Below, one piece after another: positions 50,334-61,572 of a DNA stretch of 64,000 nt. The DNA comes from Pedobacter panaciterrae. GTDB taxonomy: Bacteria; Bacteroidota; Bacteroidia; Sphingobacteriales; Sphingobacteriaceae. The stretch lies in assembly GCF_013204795.1 (NCBI RefSeq), contig NZ_JABMKW010000016.1, positions 1 through 64,000 of the forward strand. Direction: 5' to 3'. Position numbers and translations under genes: made by a program. Within the stretch, counting starts at the first letter, position 1. Every line of letters begins with the position of its first letter. The notes under the pieces were generated by a model. That model searched no databases and was not told where the DNA came from. It saw only the letters and a program-made list of their open reading frames with translations.

Positions 50334-51464
50334 TCATGATAATATAACAAGATCAGTTTCGGTAGCAGAAATACTTCGCAAAAGTTGGTTAAAAACAGCA
50401 GTTCTCATAATGATCTGAAATAAATTTAAGTGTGGCTTTCCTATACATATTGTGGTAATTTCTTTTTCTTCAGCAACCTTCAATATAGCGCTGGTGATAT
50501 GATTGCTTTTAACTTTTATCACCTCTGCACCTAGCTCGGTTGCCATTTTAAAGTTGTTAATCAGATGTCGCTGCACGTCTAATTTAATCCGATCTCCACT
50601 TTCATTATCGTTTTGTACATATAGCACTATCCATGGTGAACGGTAATAGGAAGCAAGTCTTGCGGTTTTTCTGATTACTATTTTAGCTGTTGTATTATTA
50701 GTAGATATACAAGCTAAAAAACGCTCAGGCCGAAGCTTGATCTGCTTAGGAATTTCGATATTGATTTTCCTTTCCAGGTGATGGGCAACTTCTTTTAAAG
50801 CAAGTTCACGAAGTTGGAGTATACGCTCTGGTTGAAAAAAATTTCCGAGGGCCCGTTCGATCTTACTTTTATCATAAATTTTCCCGGCTTTTAACCGCTC
50901 TATCAACTCATCTGCGGTTAGGTCTATGTTAACGATCTCGTCCGCTGTTTCTAAAATCTTATCTGGTATTCTCTCTGTGATAGGGATCCCGGTAATGGTT
51001 TCAATATCCTCATTCATACTTTCAAGATGTTGAATATTTACAGCAGAGATCACGCTAATTCCCGCTTCAAGAATATCAGCAACATCCTGCCAGCGCTTAA
51101 CGTTTTTACTCCCTTCAACATTTGTGTGCGCTAATTCATCAACAATAACAACCTCTGGGTGCGTATTAATAATTGCGTTTACATCCATCTCCTCCAGCTC
51201 TTTACCCTTATAAAAGAGTTTTCTTCGGGGAATAATCGGGATACCGTCTAATAATGCATGTGTTTCAGCTCTGTTATGGGTTTCTATATAGCCAATCCGA
51301 ATATCAATACCATTCTTTAATAAAGCATGGGCTTCCTGCAACATTCTGTACGTTTTCCCCACGCCCGCACTCATGCCAATATATACCTTAAATTTCCCTC
51401 TTCTGGACTTCTTTACCAGATCAAGAAATTTCCTTACCGAGTCTGCTTTATTATCTTCTTCCAT
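50334..51464 (-). CDS. kdpD: KdpD N-terminal sensor protein lacking the kinase domain
   Basis: 376 aa. The KdpD domain (about 20-230) has Walker A GMSAGVGKTYRMLQEA and Walker-B-like VIVDELAHTNVEGS; a universal-stress-like domain (about 245-370, ACISTNNTTAKIVIRKTARLA) follows. It ends there, with no DUF4118 TM domain and no kinase. Such split KdpD proteins are the rule in Bacteroidota kdp loci. It would sense K+ or turgor and act on a separate histidine kinase such as the next gene. Confidence 0.93.
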   Translation of the reverse strand: MEEDNKADSVRKFLDLVKKSRRGKFKVYIGMSAGVGKTYRMLQEAHALLKNGIDIRIGYIETHNRAETHALLDGIPIIPRRKLFYKGKELEEMDVNAIINTHPEVVIVDELAHTNVEGSKNVKRWQDVADILEAGISVISAVNIQHLESMNEDIETITGIPITERIPDKILETADEIVNIDLTADELIERLKAGKIYDKSKIERALGNFFQPERILQLRELALKEVAHHLERKINIEIPKQIKLRPERFLACISTNNTTAKIVIRKTARLASYYRSPWIVLYVQNDNESGDRIKLDVQRHLINNFKMATELGAEVIKVKSNHITSAILKVAEEKEITTICIGKPHLNLFQIIMRTAVFNQLLRSISATETDLVILS

Positions 51465-52928: not shown

Positions 52929-53495
52929 TTATTTTTTTAGCTCATCCAGGGCAAGGTTAAGCTTAAGTACATTTACGGATGACGGGCCAAACAGTCCTAA
53001 CAATGGCCCCTGAGTATTTTTAACTACCAGTTCAGCTACTGTCTTTTCATTTATTTTACGATAAGCAGCAATTCTTTTGATCTGGATAATGGCACCCTGT
53101 TCGGAAATGTTTGGATCTAAACCACTACCTGAAGCAGTGACCATATCGGCTGGAATATCAGCCTTTTTCAAAGATGGGTTGTATTTTAGCAAAGTGTCGA
53201 TTCTGCTCGAAACCTCTTTTAGGTAATCAGGATTTGAAGGCCCCTTATTGGAGCCGGCCGAGCCTGCAGCATTATAACCAACCGCAGAAGGTCTTCCCCA
53301 GAAATACTCCGGTTTGGTAAACGATTGGCCAATTGCGGCATAACCAACAACTTTACCATTTTTGCTGATCTTTTCGCCGCCACCATTTCCTTTTGAGAAG
53401 CCACCGGCAAAAGCAACAATCAATGGATAAATAACGCACAGTAATACCATAAGTACTAGTGTTAAGCGTAAGGATTGTATGATATATTTTTTCAT
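52929..53495 (-). CDS. kdpC: Potassium-transporting ATPase subunit KdpC
   Basis: 188 aa. One N-terminal membrane segment (LRLTLVLMVLLCVIYPLIVAF), then the periplasmic domain with GQSFTKPEYFWGRPSAVGYN, VTASGSGLDPNIS and LLGLFGPSSVNVLKLNLALDELKK. It stabilises the KdpFABC complex. It starts 12 bp after kdpB. Confidence 0.95.
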   Translation of the reverse strand: MKKYIIQSLRLTLVLMVLLCVIYPLIVAFAGGFSKGNGGGEKISKNGKVVGYAAIGQSFTKPEYFWGRPSAVGYNAAGSAGSNKGPSNPDYLKEVSSRIDTLLKYNPSLKKADIPADMVTASGSGLDPNISEQGAIIQIKRIAAYRKINEKTVAELVVKNTQGPLLGLFGPSSVNVLKLNLALDELKK

Positions 53496-53507
53496 GATTT
53501 CTATTTT

Positions 53508-55538
53508 TTAAACAAATAAGCCTACAACAATATCAATAAGTTTGATGCCTATAAAAGGGGCTATCACACCGCCAAGTCCATAGATCAGTAGATTTCTACG
53601 CAACAACGCACTGGCACCGATTGGTTTATATTCAACACCTTTTAAGGCCAGAGGGATCAGGATAGGGATAATGATTGCATTGAAAATTACAGCAGATAAA
53701 ATCGCACTCTCAGGACTATGCAATCCCATAATATTTAAACTCTGTAATGCAGGAATCGAAGCAATAAACAATGCCGGTACAATCGCAAAGTACTTCGCTA
53801 CGTCATTGGCAATAGAGAAGGTAGTAAGTGTTCCGCGGGTGATCAGCAATTGTTTACCGATTTCCACAATCTCTATGAGCTTGGTCGGATCATTATCCAG
53901 ATCCACCATGTTACCTGCTTCTTTGGCTGCCTGCGTACCACTGTTCATAGCCACACCTACGTCTGCTTGTGCAAGTGCAGGGGCATCATTGGTACCGTCA
54001 CCCATCATGGCTACAAGTTTACCCAAGGCTTGTTCTTCTTTGATGTAATTCATTTTATCCTCAGGTTTAGCCTCAGCAATAAAATCATCCACACCGGCTT
54101 TCTCTGCAATGAATTTTGCGGTAAGGGGGTTGTCTCCGGTAACCATTACCGTTTTTACACCCATTTTACGCAGGCGCTCAAAACGCTCACTAATGCCGGG
54201 TTTAATGATATCCTGTAATTCAATTACTCCAAGTGCTTTTTCATTCTCAGAAACAACAAGCGGTGTTCCCCCATTATTGGCAATTATTTTCACCTGCTCC
54301 TCAATGTCTATTGGAAAAGGATTTCCAGCCGTTAAAACAATGTTACGGATAGAATCAAATGCGCCTTTACGGATTCTTTTTCCATCCGGAGTATCCAAAC
54401 CACTTGACCTGGTTTCAGCAGTAAATTTGATGAATTTAGATCCTTCAGGTGCAGTAAGTAATTTATGATCTTGCAATACCGCAAGCTCTATAATAGATTT
54501 ACCTTCGGGGGTTTCATCAGCTAGAGAACTTAACATACAGGCATCAACGAATTGCTTCTTATCCATCCCCGAAGTAGGGTAGAAATTGGTGGCCTTACGG
54601 TTACCAATAGTAATGGTACCTGTTTTGTCCAGTAATAAAACGTCAATATCGCCTGCTGTTTCCACAGCTTTACCTGATTTGGTAATTACGTTGGCACGCA
54701 GTGCCCTGTCCATCCCGGCTATACCAATTGCAGACAGCAGTCCGCCGATAGTGGTCGGAATCAAGCAAACAAACAAGGAGATCAATGCAGCAATAGTAAT
54801 CGGAGTATTTGCATAATCAGCAAATGGCTTTAAGGTAACGCAAACAATAATAAACACCAAGGTAAAACTGGCGAGCAATATGGTCAATGCAATCTCATTG
54901 GGTGTTTTTTGTCTTGATGCACCTTCAACAAGGGCAATCATTTTATCCAGAAAACTTTCACCCGGCTGGGTATTTACCTGAACTTTGATATGGTCTGAAA
55001 GCACTTTTGTACCCCCGGTAACAGAAGATTTATCGCCTCCCGACTCACGGATTACCGGAGCCGACTCACCGGTAATGGCGGATTCATCAATGGTAGCAAT
55101 ACCTTCAATAATCTCTCCATCGGTTGGAATGGTATCTCCCGACTCGCAGAAAAATATGTCTCCTTTTTTTAATTGGTTCGAAGAACGGATCTCGATCTTT
55201 CCATTTGCCAGAACAACCTTAGCTGGTGTTTCTTCACGTGTTTTCCTTAAACTATCCGCTTGTGCTTTTCCTCTGGCCTCGGCAATGGCTTCAGCAAAAT
55301 TTGCAAAAAGAACAGTAAGCAGTAATATTAAAAAGATAAAAAAATTGTATAGTGGTGATCCCTGACCTGCGTTACTCATGGAGTATACAGTTACGTAAGC
55401 CATGATTACGGTACCGATTTCTACGGTAAACATAACCGGATTACGAACCATTACTCTGGGGTCAAGTTTGATGAAGGACTGCTTAAGTGCAGTTTGCACT
55501 AAAGCGGGTTCAAATAATTTATTAGATGAGTGTTTCAT
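53508..55538 (-). CDS. kdpB: Potassium-transporting P-type ATPase, catalytic subunit KdpB
   Basis: 676 aa. The phosphorylation motif [13 protein letters not shown] (about 305), TGESAPV actuator, [19 protein letters not shown] and [23 protein letters not shown] hinge motifs are all present. It hydrolyses ATP to drive K+ uptake in the inner membrane complex with KdpA, C and F. Six bp separate it from kdpA. Confidence 0.97.
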
Positions 55539-55544
55539 TATAAT

Positions 55545-57263
55545 CTATTTAAGCATGGTAAAGTATTCTGCCAATGGGCCTAAAGCCAGAGCAGGGAAAT
55601 AAGAAAGCGCATTCAGTACAATGATCACTGCAAAAGTCATCAGACTGAAAGTCAAAGTATCTGTTTTCAAGGTACCAGCAGACTCCGGGATGTATTTTTT
55701 AGAACCTAGTAAACCTGCAATGGCAACAGGGCCTATAATCGGTAGGAAACGACCAAGGAATAGAACGAAGCCACTGGCTACGTTCCAGAAAACATTATTG
55801 TCACCCAGACCTTCAAAACCAGAACCGTTATTGGCATTGGATGAGGTCATTTCGTACAACATCTCCGAGAAACCGTGGAAGCCGGGATTGTTTAACCAGT
55901 TCTTAGGTTGTACCGCCCATCCAGCTTCCCCGTGATTCGTAAATACATAACTGGCAATTGCCGTTCCTGCCAAGATCAGAAAAGGACTCAGTAAGGTGAT
56001 CAATGCTGCAATCTTAACCTCTCTGGCTTCTACCTTATGCCCAAGGAATTCCGGTGTTCTTCCCACCATCAATCCGGAAATAAATACAGCAATGATCAGG
56101 TAAATAAAATAATTCAATACACCAACACCGCAACCTCCATAAAAAGAGTTGATCATCATACCCAGTAATTGCCATGCGCCTGTTAGTGGCATGGTACTGT
56201 CATGCATCCCGTTAACGGAACCGGTAGAGATAATGGTGGTTACTGTGCTCCAATAGCCGGTTATGGCTGGGCCAAAACGAACTTCCTTGCCTTCCATAGC
56301 CCCGGTAGCCTGCGAAATGCCCATTTTTGCAATGGCAGGATTTCCTCCAAGCTCGGAACTTACAGTAGGGATCAGCAGGAGTAGCATACCAATCGTCATG
56401 ACCCCAAAGATCATCCAGGCAAGTCTCCTACGTCTGATGAAAATGCCAAATGCGATGACCATTGCAATAGGAATAATTACCTGTGCAACCAATTCAACGG
56501 TATTGGTGATGTAATTCGGATTTTCCAAAGGGTGGGTAGAGTTTGCACCAAACCATCCACCACCATTAGTACCCAAGTGCTTAATGGCAATAAAAGCAGC
56601 TGCAGGGCCTCTTGAAACATTTACTGTATCTCCCTGAACAGAAATAAACTGATCTTTAGCTTCATAGCTTGTTGGAGAACCGTTAAAGGCAAGAATAATT
56701 GCCATTACCAATGATAACGGAAGTAATAACCTGGTAATAGATTTCACAAAGAATTCCCAGAAGTTACCAAGTTTAGTGCTTGTTTTATCCCTGAAAGCTT
56801 TAAAGAAAACTACAGCAGCAGCAAGGCCTGTAGCCGCACTAACAAACTGGAGAAACATCAGTACAAAATGCTGGGTAAGATAAGTTACACCCGATTCTCC
56901 TGAATAGTGCTGCAGGTTACAGTTTACCACGAAACTGATGATTGTATTAAAAGAAAGATCGGGTGTCATTCCTGGGTTTCCGTCAGGATTCAACGGAAGC
57001 TTGTCCTGATACATCAGAACAAAAAATCCATAAACAAGCCATACAAGATTGATGGTTAACAGCGCCTTCATGTGCTGCTTCCAATTCATCTCTTCTTTGG
57101 GGTTAATACCAGAAAGCTTATAGATTGCGGATTCAATAGGTTTTAAAAAGTCTGTCCAAACTTTTTCTCCGGCAAATACCTTTGCCAGGTACTTGCCTAG
57201 CGGAATAGCGATGACCAGTGTAAGCAGGTAGGTCGCAACAATTCCAAGTAATTCTGTGTTCAT
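55545..57263 (-). CDS. kdpA: Potassium-transporting ATPase subunit KdpA
   Basis: 572 aa inner-membrane K+-selective channel subunit related to Trk/Ktr. About ten hydrophobic spans; selectivity-filter-like glycine motifs: NCNLQHYSGESGVTY, LGTNGGGWFGANSTHPLENP, FYGGCGVGVLNYFIY and SSNANNGSGFEGLG. Start set at ATG 57263 (MNTELLGI); the 57272 ATG adds MYI and would leave no room after kdpF. Confidence 0.96.
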   Translation of the reverse strand: MNTELLGIVATYLLTLVIAIPLGKYLAKVFAGEKVWTDFLKPIESAIYKLSGINPKEEMNWKQHMKALLTINLVWLVYGFFVLMYQDKLPLNPDGNPGMTPDLSFNTIISFVVNCNLQHYSGESGVTYLTQHFVLMFLQFVSAATGLAAAVVFFKAFRDKTSTKLGNFWEFFVKSITRLLLPLSLVMAIILAFNGSPTSYEAKDQFISVQGDTVNVSRGPAAAFIAIKHLGTNGGGWFGANSTHPLENPNYITNTVELVAQVIIPIAMVIAFGIFIRRRRLAWMIFGVMTIGMLLLLIPTVSSELGGNPAIAKMGISQATGAMEGKEVRFGPAITGYWSTVTTIISTGSVNGMHDSTMPLTGAWQLLGMMINSFYGGCGVGVLNYFIYLIIAVFISGLMVGRTPEFLGHKVEAREVKIAALITLLSPFLILAGTAIASYVFTNHGEAGWAVQPKNWLNNPGFHGFSEMLYEMTSSNANNGSGFEGLGDNNVFWNVASGFVLFLGRFLPIIGPVAIAGLLGSKKYIPESAGTLKTDTLTFSLMTFAVIIVLNALSYFPALALGPLAEYFTMLK

Positions 57264-57272
57264 AATGTACAA

Positions 57273-57638: not shown

Positions 57639-58745
57639 TCATGCGGAGGTGTATAATTGCTGATCCAGACTAGAATCATTAACAAGATATGGGAAAATAG
57701 ATTCTAAAAGATTGATATAAATGGTGATCCCATCACTTATTTCTGCAAGATAAATGTATTCATCAGCTGAATGAGAGCGGGCAGAATCTCCAGGGCCTAT
57801 TTTAACAGATGGCATTTCAAGCCAGCCCTGATCGGAGCTGGTTGGGGAGATGTATGTTTTTCTGCCAATGGCAATACCAGTTCTGACAAGGGGGTGCAAA
57901 AGATCAATTGCTGATGGTGTGAGTACGTTAGGACGAAGCGTGGTATCACAAAAGGTATGATTTTTAATTGTATTGAGTATTTCCTTTTCTGTATAACTAT
58001 GATCAAATCTGATATCAATGGTAAAGCTGCATTCGCCCGGAACAATGTTATGCTGTATACCCGCATTGATCTGAGTAACAGTCATTTTTACTGGATTTGG
58101 AAGATTAGAGTCAATAGGAAAAACATAGCTTGAAAACCAATGAATGTCTTTCAGCGCTTTGTAAATGGCATTATCTCCTTCTTCTCTTGCCGCATGCCCG
58201 GGCCTACCAGTCGAAACGCAGTCCAATACCATAGAGCCTTTTTCGGCAACCGCCATATGCATATTCGTAGGTTCCCCAACAATCGCAAATGAAATAGGCA
58301 TTAAATCATCCAGAATAGACTTAATCCCTTTTCTGCCAGAATTCTCTTCTTCTGCAGTTGCGGCCAGGCATAAATTAAAAGGAAGGTCTTTCCTTTCATA
58401 GAAAAAAAGAAACGCAGAAATCAGTGAAACCAAAGGTCCGCCTGCATCGTTACTACCCAAGCCATAAAGTTTTCCATCTTTAATCAGCGGCACAAAGGGA
58501 TCGTTATTATATTGATCATTTGGTTTCACTGTATCATGATGGGAATTCAATAAAATGATGGGTTTTAAGGGATCAAAGTATTTATTGTAACACCAGATGT
58601 TATTGTATTTACGGATAGTAAATACTTCATGGTCATTTAAGAAGGATTCAATACAATCTGCAGTTAGCTTTTCCTCTGTACTAAATGAAGGGATTTTAAT
58701 TAGTTTTTCCAGTAGTTCAACCGCCTGGTCATATAATTTGTTCAT
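57639..58745 (-). CDS. ArgE-type M20 deacetylase (N-acetylornithine/acetylcitrulline deacetylase-like)
   Basis: 368 aa. M20 metal motifs in order: LLNSHHDTV (about 65-73), GLGSNDAGG (Asp100), AAEEENSG-like ATAEEENSG (Glu132/133), VGEPTNMH (Glu158) and SARSHSADEY (His325). The dimerisation domain (about 167-281) is inserted, with the GHAA His184 that completes the active site. It belongs to the Bacteroidota ArgE group, which removes an acyl group from ornithine or citrulline intermediates. No other arg genes are adjacent. Start at ATG 58745 keeps the promoter-like element 39 nt upstream. Confidence 0.88.
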   Translation of the reverse strand: MNKLYDQAVELLEKLIKIPSFSTEEKLTADCIESFLNDHEVFTIRKYNNIWCYNKYFDPLKPIILLNSHHDTVKPNDQYNNDPFVPLIKDGKLYGLGSNDAGGPLVSLISAFLFFYERKDLPFNLCLAATAEEENSGRKGIKSILDDLMPISFAIVGEPTNMHMAVAEKGSMVLDCVSTGRPGHAAREEGDNAIYKALKDIHWFSSYVFPIDSNLPNPVKMTVTQINAGIQHNIVPGECSFTIDIRFDHSYTEKEILNTIKNHTFCDTTLRPNVLTPSAIDLLHPLVRTGIAIGRKTYISPTSSDQGWLEMPSVKIGPGDSARSHSADEYIYLAEISDGITIYINLLESIFPYLVNDSSLDQQLYTSA

Positions 58746-58783: not shown

Positions 58784-58798
58784 TCAAAAGGAATGCCC
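58784..58798 (-). promoter_or_regulatory. GGGCAT-N5-TTGA promoter-like element before the M20 gene
   Basis: On the minus strand GGGCATTCCTTTTGA has the spacing of a sigma-54 site (GG/TTG) but departs at the first and last bases. A matching element precedes the GNAT gene at 61277-61291. Confidence 0.35.
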
Positions 58799-58930: not shown

Positions 58931-60268
58931 CTAAATTTTATATTCTTCAATTTTTCGATATAATGTAGTAAGTCCTATCCCCAATAAGCGGGCAGTCTCT
59001 GTCTTATTTCCTTTGGTATATGTTAGTACTTTAAGAATATGCTGTTTCTCAACCTGCTCCATTTTCATTGGATCTGTCTCCCCTACCTGTTGCTCTAAAG
59101 CGTGAAACTCATAAGGTAGCAGATTCGCTGTAACTGAGTTCCCGTCGGCAAGAATAACGACACGCTCAATTACGTTTTTTAGCTCTCTGATGTTCCCCTT
59201 CCAGTTGTGCTTAAGGAGTAGTTCAGCAAAATCATCCCCCATTAAAAGCTCCTGCTTGTTTACTTTATTCGCAAATTCTTTTAAATAATGTTTGGCGATT
59301 AGTAAAATATCTGATTTCCGTTGAGATAAAGGTGGAAGTTCAATAGAAAATACGGAAAGGCGGTAATAAAGATCTAATCTGAACTTCCCACTTTCTGCTT
59401 CCGTTTTTAAGTCTCTGTTGGTGGCAGCAATAATGCGGACATTCACTTTACTTGTTTGGGTATCTCCTACCTTTATAAAGGTTTGATTTTCCAATACGCG
59501 AAGCAATTTTGCTTGCAAATCCAGGTTCATCTCTCCAATCTCATCCAGAAACAAAGTTCCTTCATTTGCTTCTTCCAGCAAACCTTTTTTATCTCTTACT
59601 GCTCCAGTAAATGCACCTTCTTTATGCCCAAACAATTCACTTTCTAAAAGTTCATGATTAAATCCGCTACAGTTTACGGCAACGAAAGGCTTCATTTTCC
59701 TTAAACTTTCGTAATGTATCGCTTGTGCGAACACCTCTTTCCCCGTACCCGTCTCGCCAAGTAAAAGAACAGTAGTATCTGTACCGGCAACCTTTTCAGA
59801 TAGCGCTATCGCTTCTTTAATAGCCTTAGACTGACCAAGTATGCCCGTAAAATCATATTTTCTGGCTACTTTATTTTCCAGTTCACTAATCCTAAACTGG
59901 AGTTTGGCTTTATCTAATGCTTTATAAACAAGGGGGATGATTTTGTCATTATCATCCCCCTTAGTAATATAATCAAAAGCGCCATTGCGCATTGCCATTA
60001 CACCATCTTGTATTGTACCAAAAGCAGTCAGATTGATCACCTCGGTATAAGGTTTTATTTTCTTGATCTCTTTTACGAGTTCAACTCCATTAATATCCGG
60101 AAGTTTTACATCACTAATTACTACATATACATCCTGGGCAGCTAGAATTTTCAGGCCTTCTTTGCCTGTATTTGCCTGAAAAACCTTGAAGCCTTCCAAT
60201 TCAATGATGCGCGCCAGCAGGCTGCAGATCTTTTTCTCGTCGTCTATTATTAAAACGGTGTTTTGCAT
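58931..60268 (-). CDS. NtrC-family sigma-54-dependent response regulator
   Basis: 445 aa from ATG 60268. REC domain (1-120) with phospho-acceptor Asp in VVISDVKLPDING; AAA+ domain with GETGTGKEVFAQAIHYES (Walker A), the sigma-54 contact ESELFGHKEGAFTGA, GTLFLDEIGEMNLDLQAKLLRVLE and the arginine-finger region; a Fis-type HTH at the end (NKTETARLLGIGLTTLYRKI). It opens sigma-54 promoters when phosphorylated. No cognate kinase is adjacent. It follows the GNAT gene by 20 bp and precedes the M20 gene, all on the same strand. Confidence 0.93.
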   Translation of the reverse strand: MQNTVLIIDDEKKICSLLARIIELEGFKVFQANTGKEGLKILAAQDVYVVISDVKLPDINGVELVKEIKKIKPYTEVINLTAFGTIQDGVMAMRNGAFDYITKGDDNDKIIPLVYKALDKAKLQFRISELENKVARKYDFTGILGQSKAIKEAIALSEKVAGTDTTVLLLGETGTGKEVFAQAIHYESLRKMKPFVAVNCSGFNHELLESELFGHKEGAFTGAVRDKKGLLEEANEGTLFLDEIGEMNLDLQAKLLRVLENQTFIKVGDTQTSKVNVRIIAATNRDLKTEAESGKFRLDLYYRLSVFSIELPPLSQRKSDILLIAKHYLKEFANKVNKQELLMGDDFAELLLKHNWKGNIRELKNVIERVVILADGNSVTANLLPYEFHALEQQVGETDPMKMEQVEKQHILKVLTYTKGNKTETARLLGIGLTTLYRKIEEYKI

Positions 60269-60288: not shown

Positions 60289-61248
60289 TTAGCAATTATT
60301 CAAGACAAGTTGCTGTTCGTAGACGGAATCGTCTATAATAGAAACATTAAAAACATCCTGCCTTACTGTAAATTTACATCTTGTATGATTTCTAATTGTA
60401 TTTAAAATCTCCTTTTCAGTATAATTATGATCGTAAACAATTTCAACGGTGAACCGACACTCTTTTGAGCTGCAGTTTTGTCCACCGTCCATATTTACAT
60501 TTGTAACGGTCATTTTAACTGGATCTGGAAGGTCTGATTCAATTGGATATATATATTCAGAAAACCATAAAATATCTGTTAAAGCGCTGCAAATAGCATT
60601 AGTGCCTTCTGCTCCTGCGGCAAGGCTTAATTTTGGACAGGCAATACAATCAAGAGTCATCTCACACTTTTCAGTGGCTTGTGTTAAAGCATAACTGCTA
60701 AAACTTTCTTTGTGAGGATCAAATAACATAGCTGTACATAAGCAATTGCATCTTTTTTTACCCTCAAGAACATTGTAATTAATACAGCTTTTACAGCCCT
60801 CCCAAAAATGTTCATCATGCGTAATTTGGTCAAATGTTACCGGTTCAAAACCCAGTTGATAATTCATTTTCATAATTGCCGCTCCAGATGTAATGCTAAA
60901 TATCTTGGCCTCTGGATATATTCTTCTTGAAATTTTAAATATCCTTTCCTTAATTGCCTTAGCCACACCAGCATTTCTGAATTTGGGAGCTACAATTAAA
61001 CCAGAGTTAGACACAAAGGAGCTGTTTTCCCAAACTTCAAAATAAGAGAACCCAACCCATTCACCACCCCCGGTTACTGCAATAACAGCTTTTCCTTCTT
61101 TTATCTTTTGGGCGATAGATTCGGGACTGCGCTTTGCGATCCCAGATCCTCTGGCAATTGCCGAAGATTCAGTTTCTTTAACGATTTCATCAACATGTTT
61201 TATATCAGCGACGGTAGCGATACGAACAAATATCATTTGATTTTCCAT
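60289..61248 (-). CDS. GNAT acetyltransferase fused to a degenerate M20 dimerisation domain
   Basis: 319 aa. Residues about 5-135 form a GNAT fold with the acetyl-CoA loop SGLIVAPKFRNAGVAKAIKE-like motif. Residues 145-180 carry a Cys-rich stretch (EGCKSCINY, RCNCLCTAMLFDP), a pattern I associate with putative Bacteroidota N-acylglutamate synthases. Residues 192-306 align without gaps to residues 167-281 of the ArgE-like protein (62 of 115 identical by my count), but the active-site His (GHAA becomes SLAA) and the HNIVP loop are lost. The very end (QQLVLNN) recalls the ArgE C terminus. Start ATG 61248. Confidence 0.8.
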   Translation of the reverse strand: MENQMIFVRIATVADIKHVDEIVKETESSAIARGSGIAKRSPESIAQKIKEGKAVIAVTGGGEWVGFSYFEVWENSSFVSNSGLIVAPKFRNAGVAKAIKERIFKISRRIYPEAKIFSITSGAAIMKMNYQLGFEPVTFDQITHDEHFWEGCKSCINYNVLEGKKRCNCLCTAMLFDPHKESFSSYALTQATEKCEMTLDCIACPKLSLAAGAEGTNAICSALTDILWFSEYIYPIESDLPDPVKMTVTNVNMDGGQNCSSKECRFTVEIVYDHNYTEKEILNTIRNHTRCKFTVRQDVFNVSIIDDSVYEQQLVLNNC

Positions 61249-61276: not shown

Positions 61277-61291
61277 TCAAATGAGATGCCC
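61277..61291 (-). promoter_or_regulatory. GGGCAT-N5-TTGA promoter-like element before the GNAT gene
   Basis: On the minus strand GGGCATCTCATTTGA, followed by GCCGTTCA-like sequence as in the M20 copy. It lies 28 nt before the GNAT ATG and has the same near-sigma-54 shape. Confidence 0.35.
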
Positions 61292-61498: not shown

Positions 61499-61572
61499 AG
61501 TCATGTGGCCGAGTGGTTAGGTGAGGGTCTGCAAAACCTTTGACGGCGGTTCGAATCCGCCCTTGACGTCCA
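61499..61572 (+). tRNA. tRNA-Cys(GCA), weak acceptor stem
   Basis: Ends with an encoded CCA. D-stem GCC/GGT, anticodon stem AGGGT/ACCTT with loop CTGCAAA (anticodon GCA), perfect T-arm GGCGG/CCGCC with TTCGAAT. With U8 at 61506, the 7-bp acceptor stem has two mismatches: A1-G72 and T6-T67. It may be functional with an odd stem or a decaying extra copy. Confidence 0.8.

Follow-up and report, generated by a model that had tools for sequence, protein, structure and literature searches.

Classical NAGS enzymes, those of the Neisseria type, consist of an amino-acid-kinase-like domain joined to a GNAT domain, and the kinase-like domain controls the GNAT. Bacteroidota have short-GNAT N-acylglutamate synthases, such as Cabys_1732 (excerpts of PMC5317091) and BT3761 of Bacteroides, the latter a probable N-succinylglutamate synthase; genetic data for Pedobacter sp. 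GW460-11-11-14-LB5 point to arginine synthesis via succinylated intermediates (both in excerpts of PMC7311316). Among the M20 deacylases, E. coli ArgE dimerises exclusively via its dimerisation domains, which form an eight-stranded sheet with helix pairs, and when DapE closes, the dimerisation domain of the partner brings some of its residues near the ligand (excerpts of PMC11270798).

The gene described here carries a GNAT domain and an M20 dimerisation domain (the lid) in one reading frame. It lies in the window, the whole 64,000-nucleotide stretch of Pedobacter panaciterrae DNA that was analysed, together with a sigma54-dependent regulator, an ArgE-like paralogue and the genes of the Kdp potassium pump:

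61278-61290, minus strand: sigma54-like site GGCAT-N5-TTG, 42 nt before the fusion gene begins (pattern scan)
60289-61248, minus strand: GNAT-M20 lid fusion gene, 319 aa, intact ORF (ORF reading, blastp, genus search)
60709-61248, minus strand: GNAT (N-acylglutamate-synthase-like) domain, residues 1-180 (alignments, AF2 model, structure matches)
60673-60708, minus strand: variable linker, residues 181-192, deletion junction 1 (alignments; pLDDT <50 at 182-191)
60331-60672, minus strand: M20 dimerisation (lid) domain, residues 193-306, with degenerate GH and HNIVP loops (blastp, profile, Foldseek, models)
60289-60330, minus strand: C-terminal tail, residues 307-319 and stop, with deletion junction 2 just before it (3'-end comparison)
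58931-60268, minus strand: sigma54-dependent response regulator of the AtoC/NtrC type, probable ATG at 60268 (family models, equivalog cut-offs not reached)
58785-58797, minus strand: sigma54-like site, 52 nt before ArgE begins with MNKLYDQ (pattern scan)
57639-58745, minus strand: full-length ArgE-like M20 deacylase paralogue, start MNKLYDQ at 58745 (blastp, family models, trees)
52929-57272, minus strand: kdpA, kdpB and kdpC, the ATP-driven potassium pump (family models above their cut-offs)
50334-51464, minus strand: KdpD-like sensor without the kinase part (family match below cut-off)

A tRNA-Cys(gca) gene lies on the plus strand at window positions 61499-61572, upstream of the fusion gene. 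Both domains are known, and neither their union nor an M20 lid surviving outside any hydrolase was found in print; the open-licence literature yielded no description of a GNAT-M20 dimerisation-domain fusion, of kdpA with sigma-54 in Pedobacter, or of a kdpFABC operon with an N-acetyltransferase in Bacteroidetes.

Domains of the fusion protein

The earlier note had aligned residues 192-306 of the fusion protein without gaps to residues 167-281 of the neighbouring ArgE (counted from MNKLYDQ), and the same 62 identities in 115 positions were obtained here; blastp gave 62/114 identical residues (54%, E = 4e-38). The similarity at the DNA level was exactly as claimed, with 43/51 bases identical between 60382-60432 and 57954-58004. 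The best other match of this 51-mer on the same strand of window positions 1-57000 was 32/51, and blastn gave 165/243 identical bases (E = 2e-18). The blastp alignment covers just the residues equivalent to ArgE 168-281, to which the 3'-end comparison adds ArgE's last codons, and a Pfam scan at E <= 10 gave no match to the Peptidase_M20 catalytic domain. The loss of the GH(AA) histidine and the HNIVP loop of ArgE was borne out in the alignments: the GH histidine is kept in 0/10 fusions and 1/5 orphan lids, and the HN histidine in 0/10 and 0/5.

A search with the M20_dimer model (PF07687) found no match in the fusion protein at E <= 10, which is literally one of the outcomes that the earlier note had set down as refuting its reading. 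Six places in the same genome matched this model, the fusion not among them, and the neighbouring ArgE scored 55.3 against a cut-off of 21. We take the miss as a failure of the model, not as absence of homology: two substrate-loop motifs are gone, though much of the core is kept. A profile built from fused and free lids (A1) recovered 3ct9, a Bacteroides M20 enzyme, at 5e-24 as the sole PDB match at E <= 1. Foldseek with the first structure model also placed 3ct9 first, with DapE chains further down and GNAT chains present too. The lid has the topology beta-alpha-beta-beta-alpha-beta, in the same order in both models (E195-203, H218-231, E244-253, E264-272, H278-288 and E292-295 in the first), at moderate confidence (pLDDT block means of 56-90 in the first model and 47-73 in the second). 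The union of a GNAT with an M20 lid is real: it is in frame, and the homology is given by blastp, profile and fold search.

The acyl-CoA binding loop of GNATs has the motif (Q/R)xxGx(G/A); in the sequence of the fusion it is R91-N-A-G-V-A96, with R91 and A96 invariant and G94 nearly so in 45 aligned rows. C152, C155, C169 and C171 are invariant in 45 aligned GNAT relatives and C167 in the six aligned fusions, and this cysteine cluster is possibly a metal site. The arrangement C-x2-C-x13-C-x-C (residues 152-171; window 60736-60795) is common to GNAT copies of the arg-cluster type as well. In the Pfam scan at E <= 10 the fusion matched GNAT models only, all below their cut-offs, and no amino-acid-kinase-like domain.

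The second model (AF2) was computed from alignment A6, without free lids, after alignments A4 and A5 had set free lids on the GNAT part and were discarded. It reached pLDDT 73 and pTM 0.69, and its GNAT fold was confident for residues 1-180 (block means of 69-96). The top structure match by VIA-align was NAGS 2r8v (Z 17.1, 152 residues, 3.0 A), tied with the non-NAGS GNAT 9cr5 (Z 16.2); 5yge at Z 15.3 (ArgA with glutamate and acetyl-CoA), 5yo2 at 15.0 and 3d2p at 14.7 followed among other GNATs, and NAGS 3e0k was on the Foldseek list. VIA-align and Foldseek returned GNAT/NAGS chains only for this model, whose lid part, based on 10 alignment rows, was barely probed there. The best match, 2r8v, agrees with the earlier note's likening of the N-terminal half to N-acylglutamate synthases, and the structure matches as a whole support NAGS-likeness without proving it.

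The same genome has another GNAT, beside argG, that is 56% identical to the GNAT of the fusion. Near it are argC, a carbamoyltransferase gene, argB, an ArgE gene and argH, along with genes that we take from their sequences to be argD and proC. This arg-cluster GNAT is a different gene from the fusion, which lies near the regulator and kdp genes and is not in the arg cluster.

Distribution of the fusion and selection on the lid

A survey of genomes, as suggested by the earlier note, revealed the full-length fusion in 10/145 Pedobacter genomes: G000 (the genome of the window), then G072, G033, G025 and G105 (88-92% identity), and G069, G038, G001, G037 and G128 (66-70%). P. panaciterrae O48 carries an eleventh. 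The matches listed after the ten fusions in the 145-genome search stop at about residue 178-191. No full-length fusion was found among the matches listed for other genera of the family (genomes G145-G438), and the matches listed from an order-level draw of 300 genomes were of the same family only. A scan of the genomes of 84,980 species for two peptide patterns, which may lack records near the window's genome, gave 63 relatives; six of the 63 are fusions, in Pedobacter only. Two Mucilaginibacter matches reaching residue 294-296 were rejected as fusions, the lid match lying about 1.1 kb past the GNAT start, as it does where ArgE is a gene of its own.

The ORF of the fusion is unbroken, without the frameshift that the earlier note had allowed for, and the ten congeneric fusions are all free of internal stops. 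The fused lids gave dN/dS values of 0.05-0.16 (19/25 computed pairs, with estimable dS) and the GNAT parts 0.01-0.09 (14/25 pairs); lid dN was 0.8 to 5.5 times GNAT dN, with 13/25 pairs between 2 and 3. The corresponding values for the lids of kdp-type ArgEs were 0.03-0.05 (3/6 pairs with estimable dS), so the fused lid is constrained, yet less than in ArgE. DI.WF.EY..PIE and KEI.....NHT.C.F are invariant in six aligned fusions and largely common to ArgE, and in G038 and G128 11 residues of the lid are deleted at the former ArgE substrate loops. The fusion is thus conserved in relatives (10/145 genomes) and its lid is under purifying selection.

These data bear on the possibility that the lid is functionless debris of an in-frame deletion, kept open solely to let translation continue in the direction of the regulator gene. 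Such debris would suit a locus that often loses pieces (as in LF-bin-319, G005, G020, G163, G004 and G099) and in which the regulator ATG is only 20 nt past the fusion stop in G000. However, no internal stop occurs in 10/10 fusions, and in a neutral simulation (0.9 changes per site, substitutions only) 145 codons stayed stop-free in just 0.2% of runs. Above all, selection acts on the lid at the amino-acid level, which makes the debris reading very unlikely. A sequencing error or pseudogene was ruled out by the intact ORF in ten genomes, the lid dN/dS and the simulation.

Gene order and origin of the fusion

The order of genes is short GNAT, ArgE, sigma54 regulator, kdpA, kdpB, kdpC and porin in G126, G076 and G058, and G134, G018, G044 and G078 agree with the order GNAT-ArgE-regulator-kdpA. 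There were 56 non-fusion named loci (L168-L223, with the fragment L224 set aside). In 45 of them an ArgE lid match lies downstream of the short GNAT at adjacent-gene spacing, and 44 have a related regulator or kdp gene within the stretch of up to 3 kb per side, one of these, L220, having a 54% regulator 2.5 kb off. The regulator follows the fusion directly in 10/10 fusion genomes, its ATG in G000 coming 20 nt after the fusion stop, and an ArgE stands between regulator and kdpA only in G000 and G072. The last codons of the fusion read LVLNNC in the window and VSNNY or VSNNC in the others, like the ArgE end LVSDNY.. of G126, G076 and G058. The fusion end and regulator leader of G000, aacttgtcttgaataattgctaaTATTGTTGAAATTATCAG, are close to the ArgE end and leader of G126, aacttgtctcagataattattaaTATTGTCTAAATTATCAG, with single-letter offsets; at the DNA level this 3' end and leader are similar in 3/4 of the ArgE ends shown (G126, G076 and G058, not G018).

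Gene order and the shared 3' end point to an in-place, in-frame cut-down of ArgE on both sides of the lid. We consider it highly probable that the operon's own ArgE was deleted in place to its lid and joined to the GNAT. The ancestral operon would have been GNAT-ArgE-sigma54 regulator-kdpABC, the order kept in relatives. One in-frame loss, in a single Pedobacter lineage, would have removed the GNAT tail and stop with the N-terminal catalytic part of ArgE, and a second the C-terminal catalytic part, leaving the GNAT, the ArgE lid and ArgE's last codons as one gene before the regulator.

The earlier note had instead regarded the lid as transplanted, or locally duplicated, from the neighbouring ArgE. 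A recent copy from 57639-58745 would fit the closeness of the two genes and their 54% identity, and a clade of all 15 lids, fused and free, with the ArgEs of G000 and G072 was not rejected (p-AU 0.26). However, a clade of the fused lids alone with these ArgEs was rejected (p-AU 9e-65), 6/10 fusion genomes are without a kdp-type ArgE, and the lid stands where ArgE originally stood, its gene ending at the 3' side much as ArgE does, so that synteny also speaks against the transplant. The lid tree places the window's ArgE among the other kdp-type ArgEs; because the free lids are long branches, the group that unites all lids (87/89) is uncertain. On these sequence comparisons the neighbouring ArgE was probably not the donor, and a recent copy from it is hardly credible.

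The GNAT tree unites the 11 fusions with G099 at a support (89/84) below the strong mark, and G099 is nested among them (96/80). G099 has a short GNAT, yet ends LVSNNY; given its place among the fusions and the same end, it probably lost its lid later. A clade of the 11 fusions without G099 was not rejected (p-AU 0.43). Pieces have gone missing in other genomes too: the locus no longer has an ArgE in G005 and G020, and the gene is broken in G163 and G004. Ancestral order, product and later loss are all visible in living species, and deletion of a discontinuous catalytic domain can leave the dimerisation domain as a new part of a neighbour enzyme.

Several related loci are arranged differently. 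In the MAG Pedobacter sp. LF-bin-319 (L224, 3001-3370), about 42 N-terminal GNAT residues run in frame into the C-terminal catalytic part of ArgE, and the regulator follows directly. In Niastella and Filimonas MAGs (L212, L216) the GNAT is near kdp genes without ArgE, in L212 just before a kdpD-like gene, so the GNAT may have been linked to kdp before ArgE became its partner. A GNAT-ArgE pair occurs in another context in G013, G016 and G127 (L077, L078, L081): it comes after what we presume to be a serC-like gene plus one of unknown kind, with a presumably transporter-like gene behind it. In G025 (L070, 8220-13086) and G105 (L071, 4710-9062) a histidine-kinase-family gene, not kdp, comes after fusion and regulator; kdp with ArgE in front is at another locus in both (L083, L084).

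Possible role of the lid and comparison with known systems

The lid profile run over the genus, with reading of the loci, also gave a lone lid ORF in five other genomes. In G052 and G086 it directly follows a short GNAT, and these GNATs form a separate pair in the GNAT tree (100/93). In G139, G035 and G029 the regulator precedes it and kdpA follows, and a full ArgE stands ahead of the regulator (GNAT-ArgE-regulator-lid-kdpA in G029). Codons 2-6 of the lid match codons 2-6 of the GNAT at 13/15 bases in G035 and 14/15 in G029, a match equalled by 0.15% and 0.08% of 1324 ATGs in four loci, own starts included; in G139 the match is 8/15 only (8.7% of ATGs as good). A sigma54-like site is found 41 nt before the lid ATG in G035 and G029 and 144 nt before it in G139. 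With their GNAT-like starts and sigma54-like sites, the lids of G035 and G029 look like fusion remnants that lack the GNAT. The G139 and G035 lids gave dN/dS 0.29, the other three pairs being saturated. Lid-profile matches in G004 and G091 were rejected as orphan lids, one being a frameshifted full ArgE and the other a piece resembling the arg-cluster ArgE. In G139 (L095, 11300-11560), several repeats like the 3' end of the regulator (..TLYRKIDEYKI-type, in several frames) come after the regulator gene and precede the orphan lid.

What the lids have kept was scored on the letters shared by 85% or more of 31 lids from kdp-type ArgEs. The fusions keep 0.80 of these in helix A, 0.96 in helix B and 0.73, 0.67 and 0.60 in strands 2, 3 and 4. 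In strand 1 they keep 0.48, and in the two loops 0.31 (GH) and 0.10 (HNIVP). The free lids keep 0.72 in helix A, 0.56 in helix B, 0.67 in strands 2 and 3, 0.33 in strands 4 and 1, 0.20 in the GH loop and 0.17 in the HNIVP loop. A core kept and reaching loops lost would be expected from selection for pairing without hydrolysis, and selection for folding alone would leave the same pattern.

We tentatively propose that the fusion may be a paired NAGS-like enzyme, made together with the regulator from a sigma54-type promoter and feeding an acylated arginine/ornithine route, perhaps under potassium limitation. The GNAT would still be an N-acylglutamate synthase or a close relative, committing glutamate to that route. 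The lid would have been kept for joining subunits as in ArgE, here pairing two GNAT subunits, with free decay of the loops that it extends into the active site of a partner hydrolase. When potassium is low, glutamate, its usual counter-ion, might be channelled towards arginine, ornithine and polyamines, a route that yields cations. The lid is dispensable for the GNAT reaction, since it is absent from most orthologues seen and from G099. The acetyl cycle in which the earlier note had placed the enzyme is doubtful in view of the succinylated intermediates of the Pedobacter strain (excerpts of PMC7311316). Origin and function taken together are the best explanation we can offer, and we give it slightly less than even odds.

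The consensus spacing of sigma54 sites is GGCAY-N5-TTG. A sigma54-like site is present 40-43 nt before the start in 11/11 fusions (0.08 expected) and 40-45 nt before 27/69 short GNATs (0.14 expected), a set in which a few genomes occur twice; it is absent in the other 42/69 and in 0/10 GNATs of the set labelled canonical was one found. Within 300 nt before kdpA none was found in 3/3 genomes (G000, G069, G126), so that common control of fusion and pump is putative, suggested by gene order.

The earlier note had suggested a heteromer of synthase and deacetylase. In a wider form of that idea, a fused or free lid would pair in trans with that of a complete ArgE-type deacylase, either linking synthase and deacylase or poisoning or regulating the latter. 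Lid and kdp-type ArgE do share a locus in G000 and G072 (fusion-regulator-ArgE-kdpA) and in G029, G035 and G139 (ArgE-regulator-orphan lid-kdpA). A partner lid without the ligand-approaching residues should also lower activity, as the closed form of DapE implies (excerpts of PMC11270798). However, the kdp-type ArgE is present in only 7/15 lid genomes (in the same locus in five, at another locus in G105 and G025), and for the other eight the ArgE matches listed are all of a second type, with 57-60% identity to the query. Among the fusion genomes the kdp-type ArgE occurs in 4/10, beside the fusion in 2/10, and the second type in 10/10, that of G000 being the arg-cluster copy. Such pairing keeps some chance, but we regard it as rather unlikely, and it would not be general among the lid genomes.

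The lid may otherwise have become a regulatory domain that binds a small molecule and controls the GNAT, perhaps as a sensor of arginine or another acyl-amino acid. The beta-alpha-beta-beta-alpha-beta order of the models is a ferredoxin-like fold, which ACT domains also have, and the invariant motifs of the six fusions would agree with a binding role, though they are largely ArgE's too. No ligand site was identified in the lid, and the ArgE substrate loops are lost, with 11 residues deleted there in G038 and G128; such a domain seems decidedly improbable.

Broader than the paired enzyme preferred here is a role of the M20 lid as an independent, selected module of kdp-linked operons in Pedobacter. 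Fused to a NAGS-like GNAT in one lineage and alone in others (about 120-160 aa, catalytic loops decayed), it would bind deacylases or the GNAT in trans and balance the making and breaking of N-acyl amino acids at low potassium. This seems to us rather unlikely. The loci do point to a link, in Pedobacter and Mucilaginibacter relatives, of the kdp potassium pump with a paralogous pair of arginine-route-type enzymes, and it can be tested directly whether glutamate is diverted into N-acyl amino acids when potassium is limiting.

In comparison with described systems, the fusion resembles the Bacteroidota short-GNAT synthases BT3761 and Cabys_1732 in having a single GNAT domain, and its 56% identical homologue in the same genome adjoins argG. 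Unlike them, it lies in a sigma54-regulator/kdp operon, not an arg cluster, and carries a C-terminal M20 lid. With the M20 deacylases of the ArgE/DapE kind (3ct9 of B. thetaiotaomicron, E. coli ArgE, H. influenzae DapE) it shares, in residues 193-306, a homologous dimerisation domain, but it is without both halves of the catalytic domain and without the GH and HNIVP loops. Like classical NAGS, it joins a GNAT to a second domain that may oligomerise, and the GNAT folds match (2r8v, Z 17.1). However, no kinase-like domain was matched in the fusion; its second domain is C-terminal and derived from an M20 hydrolase.
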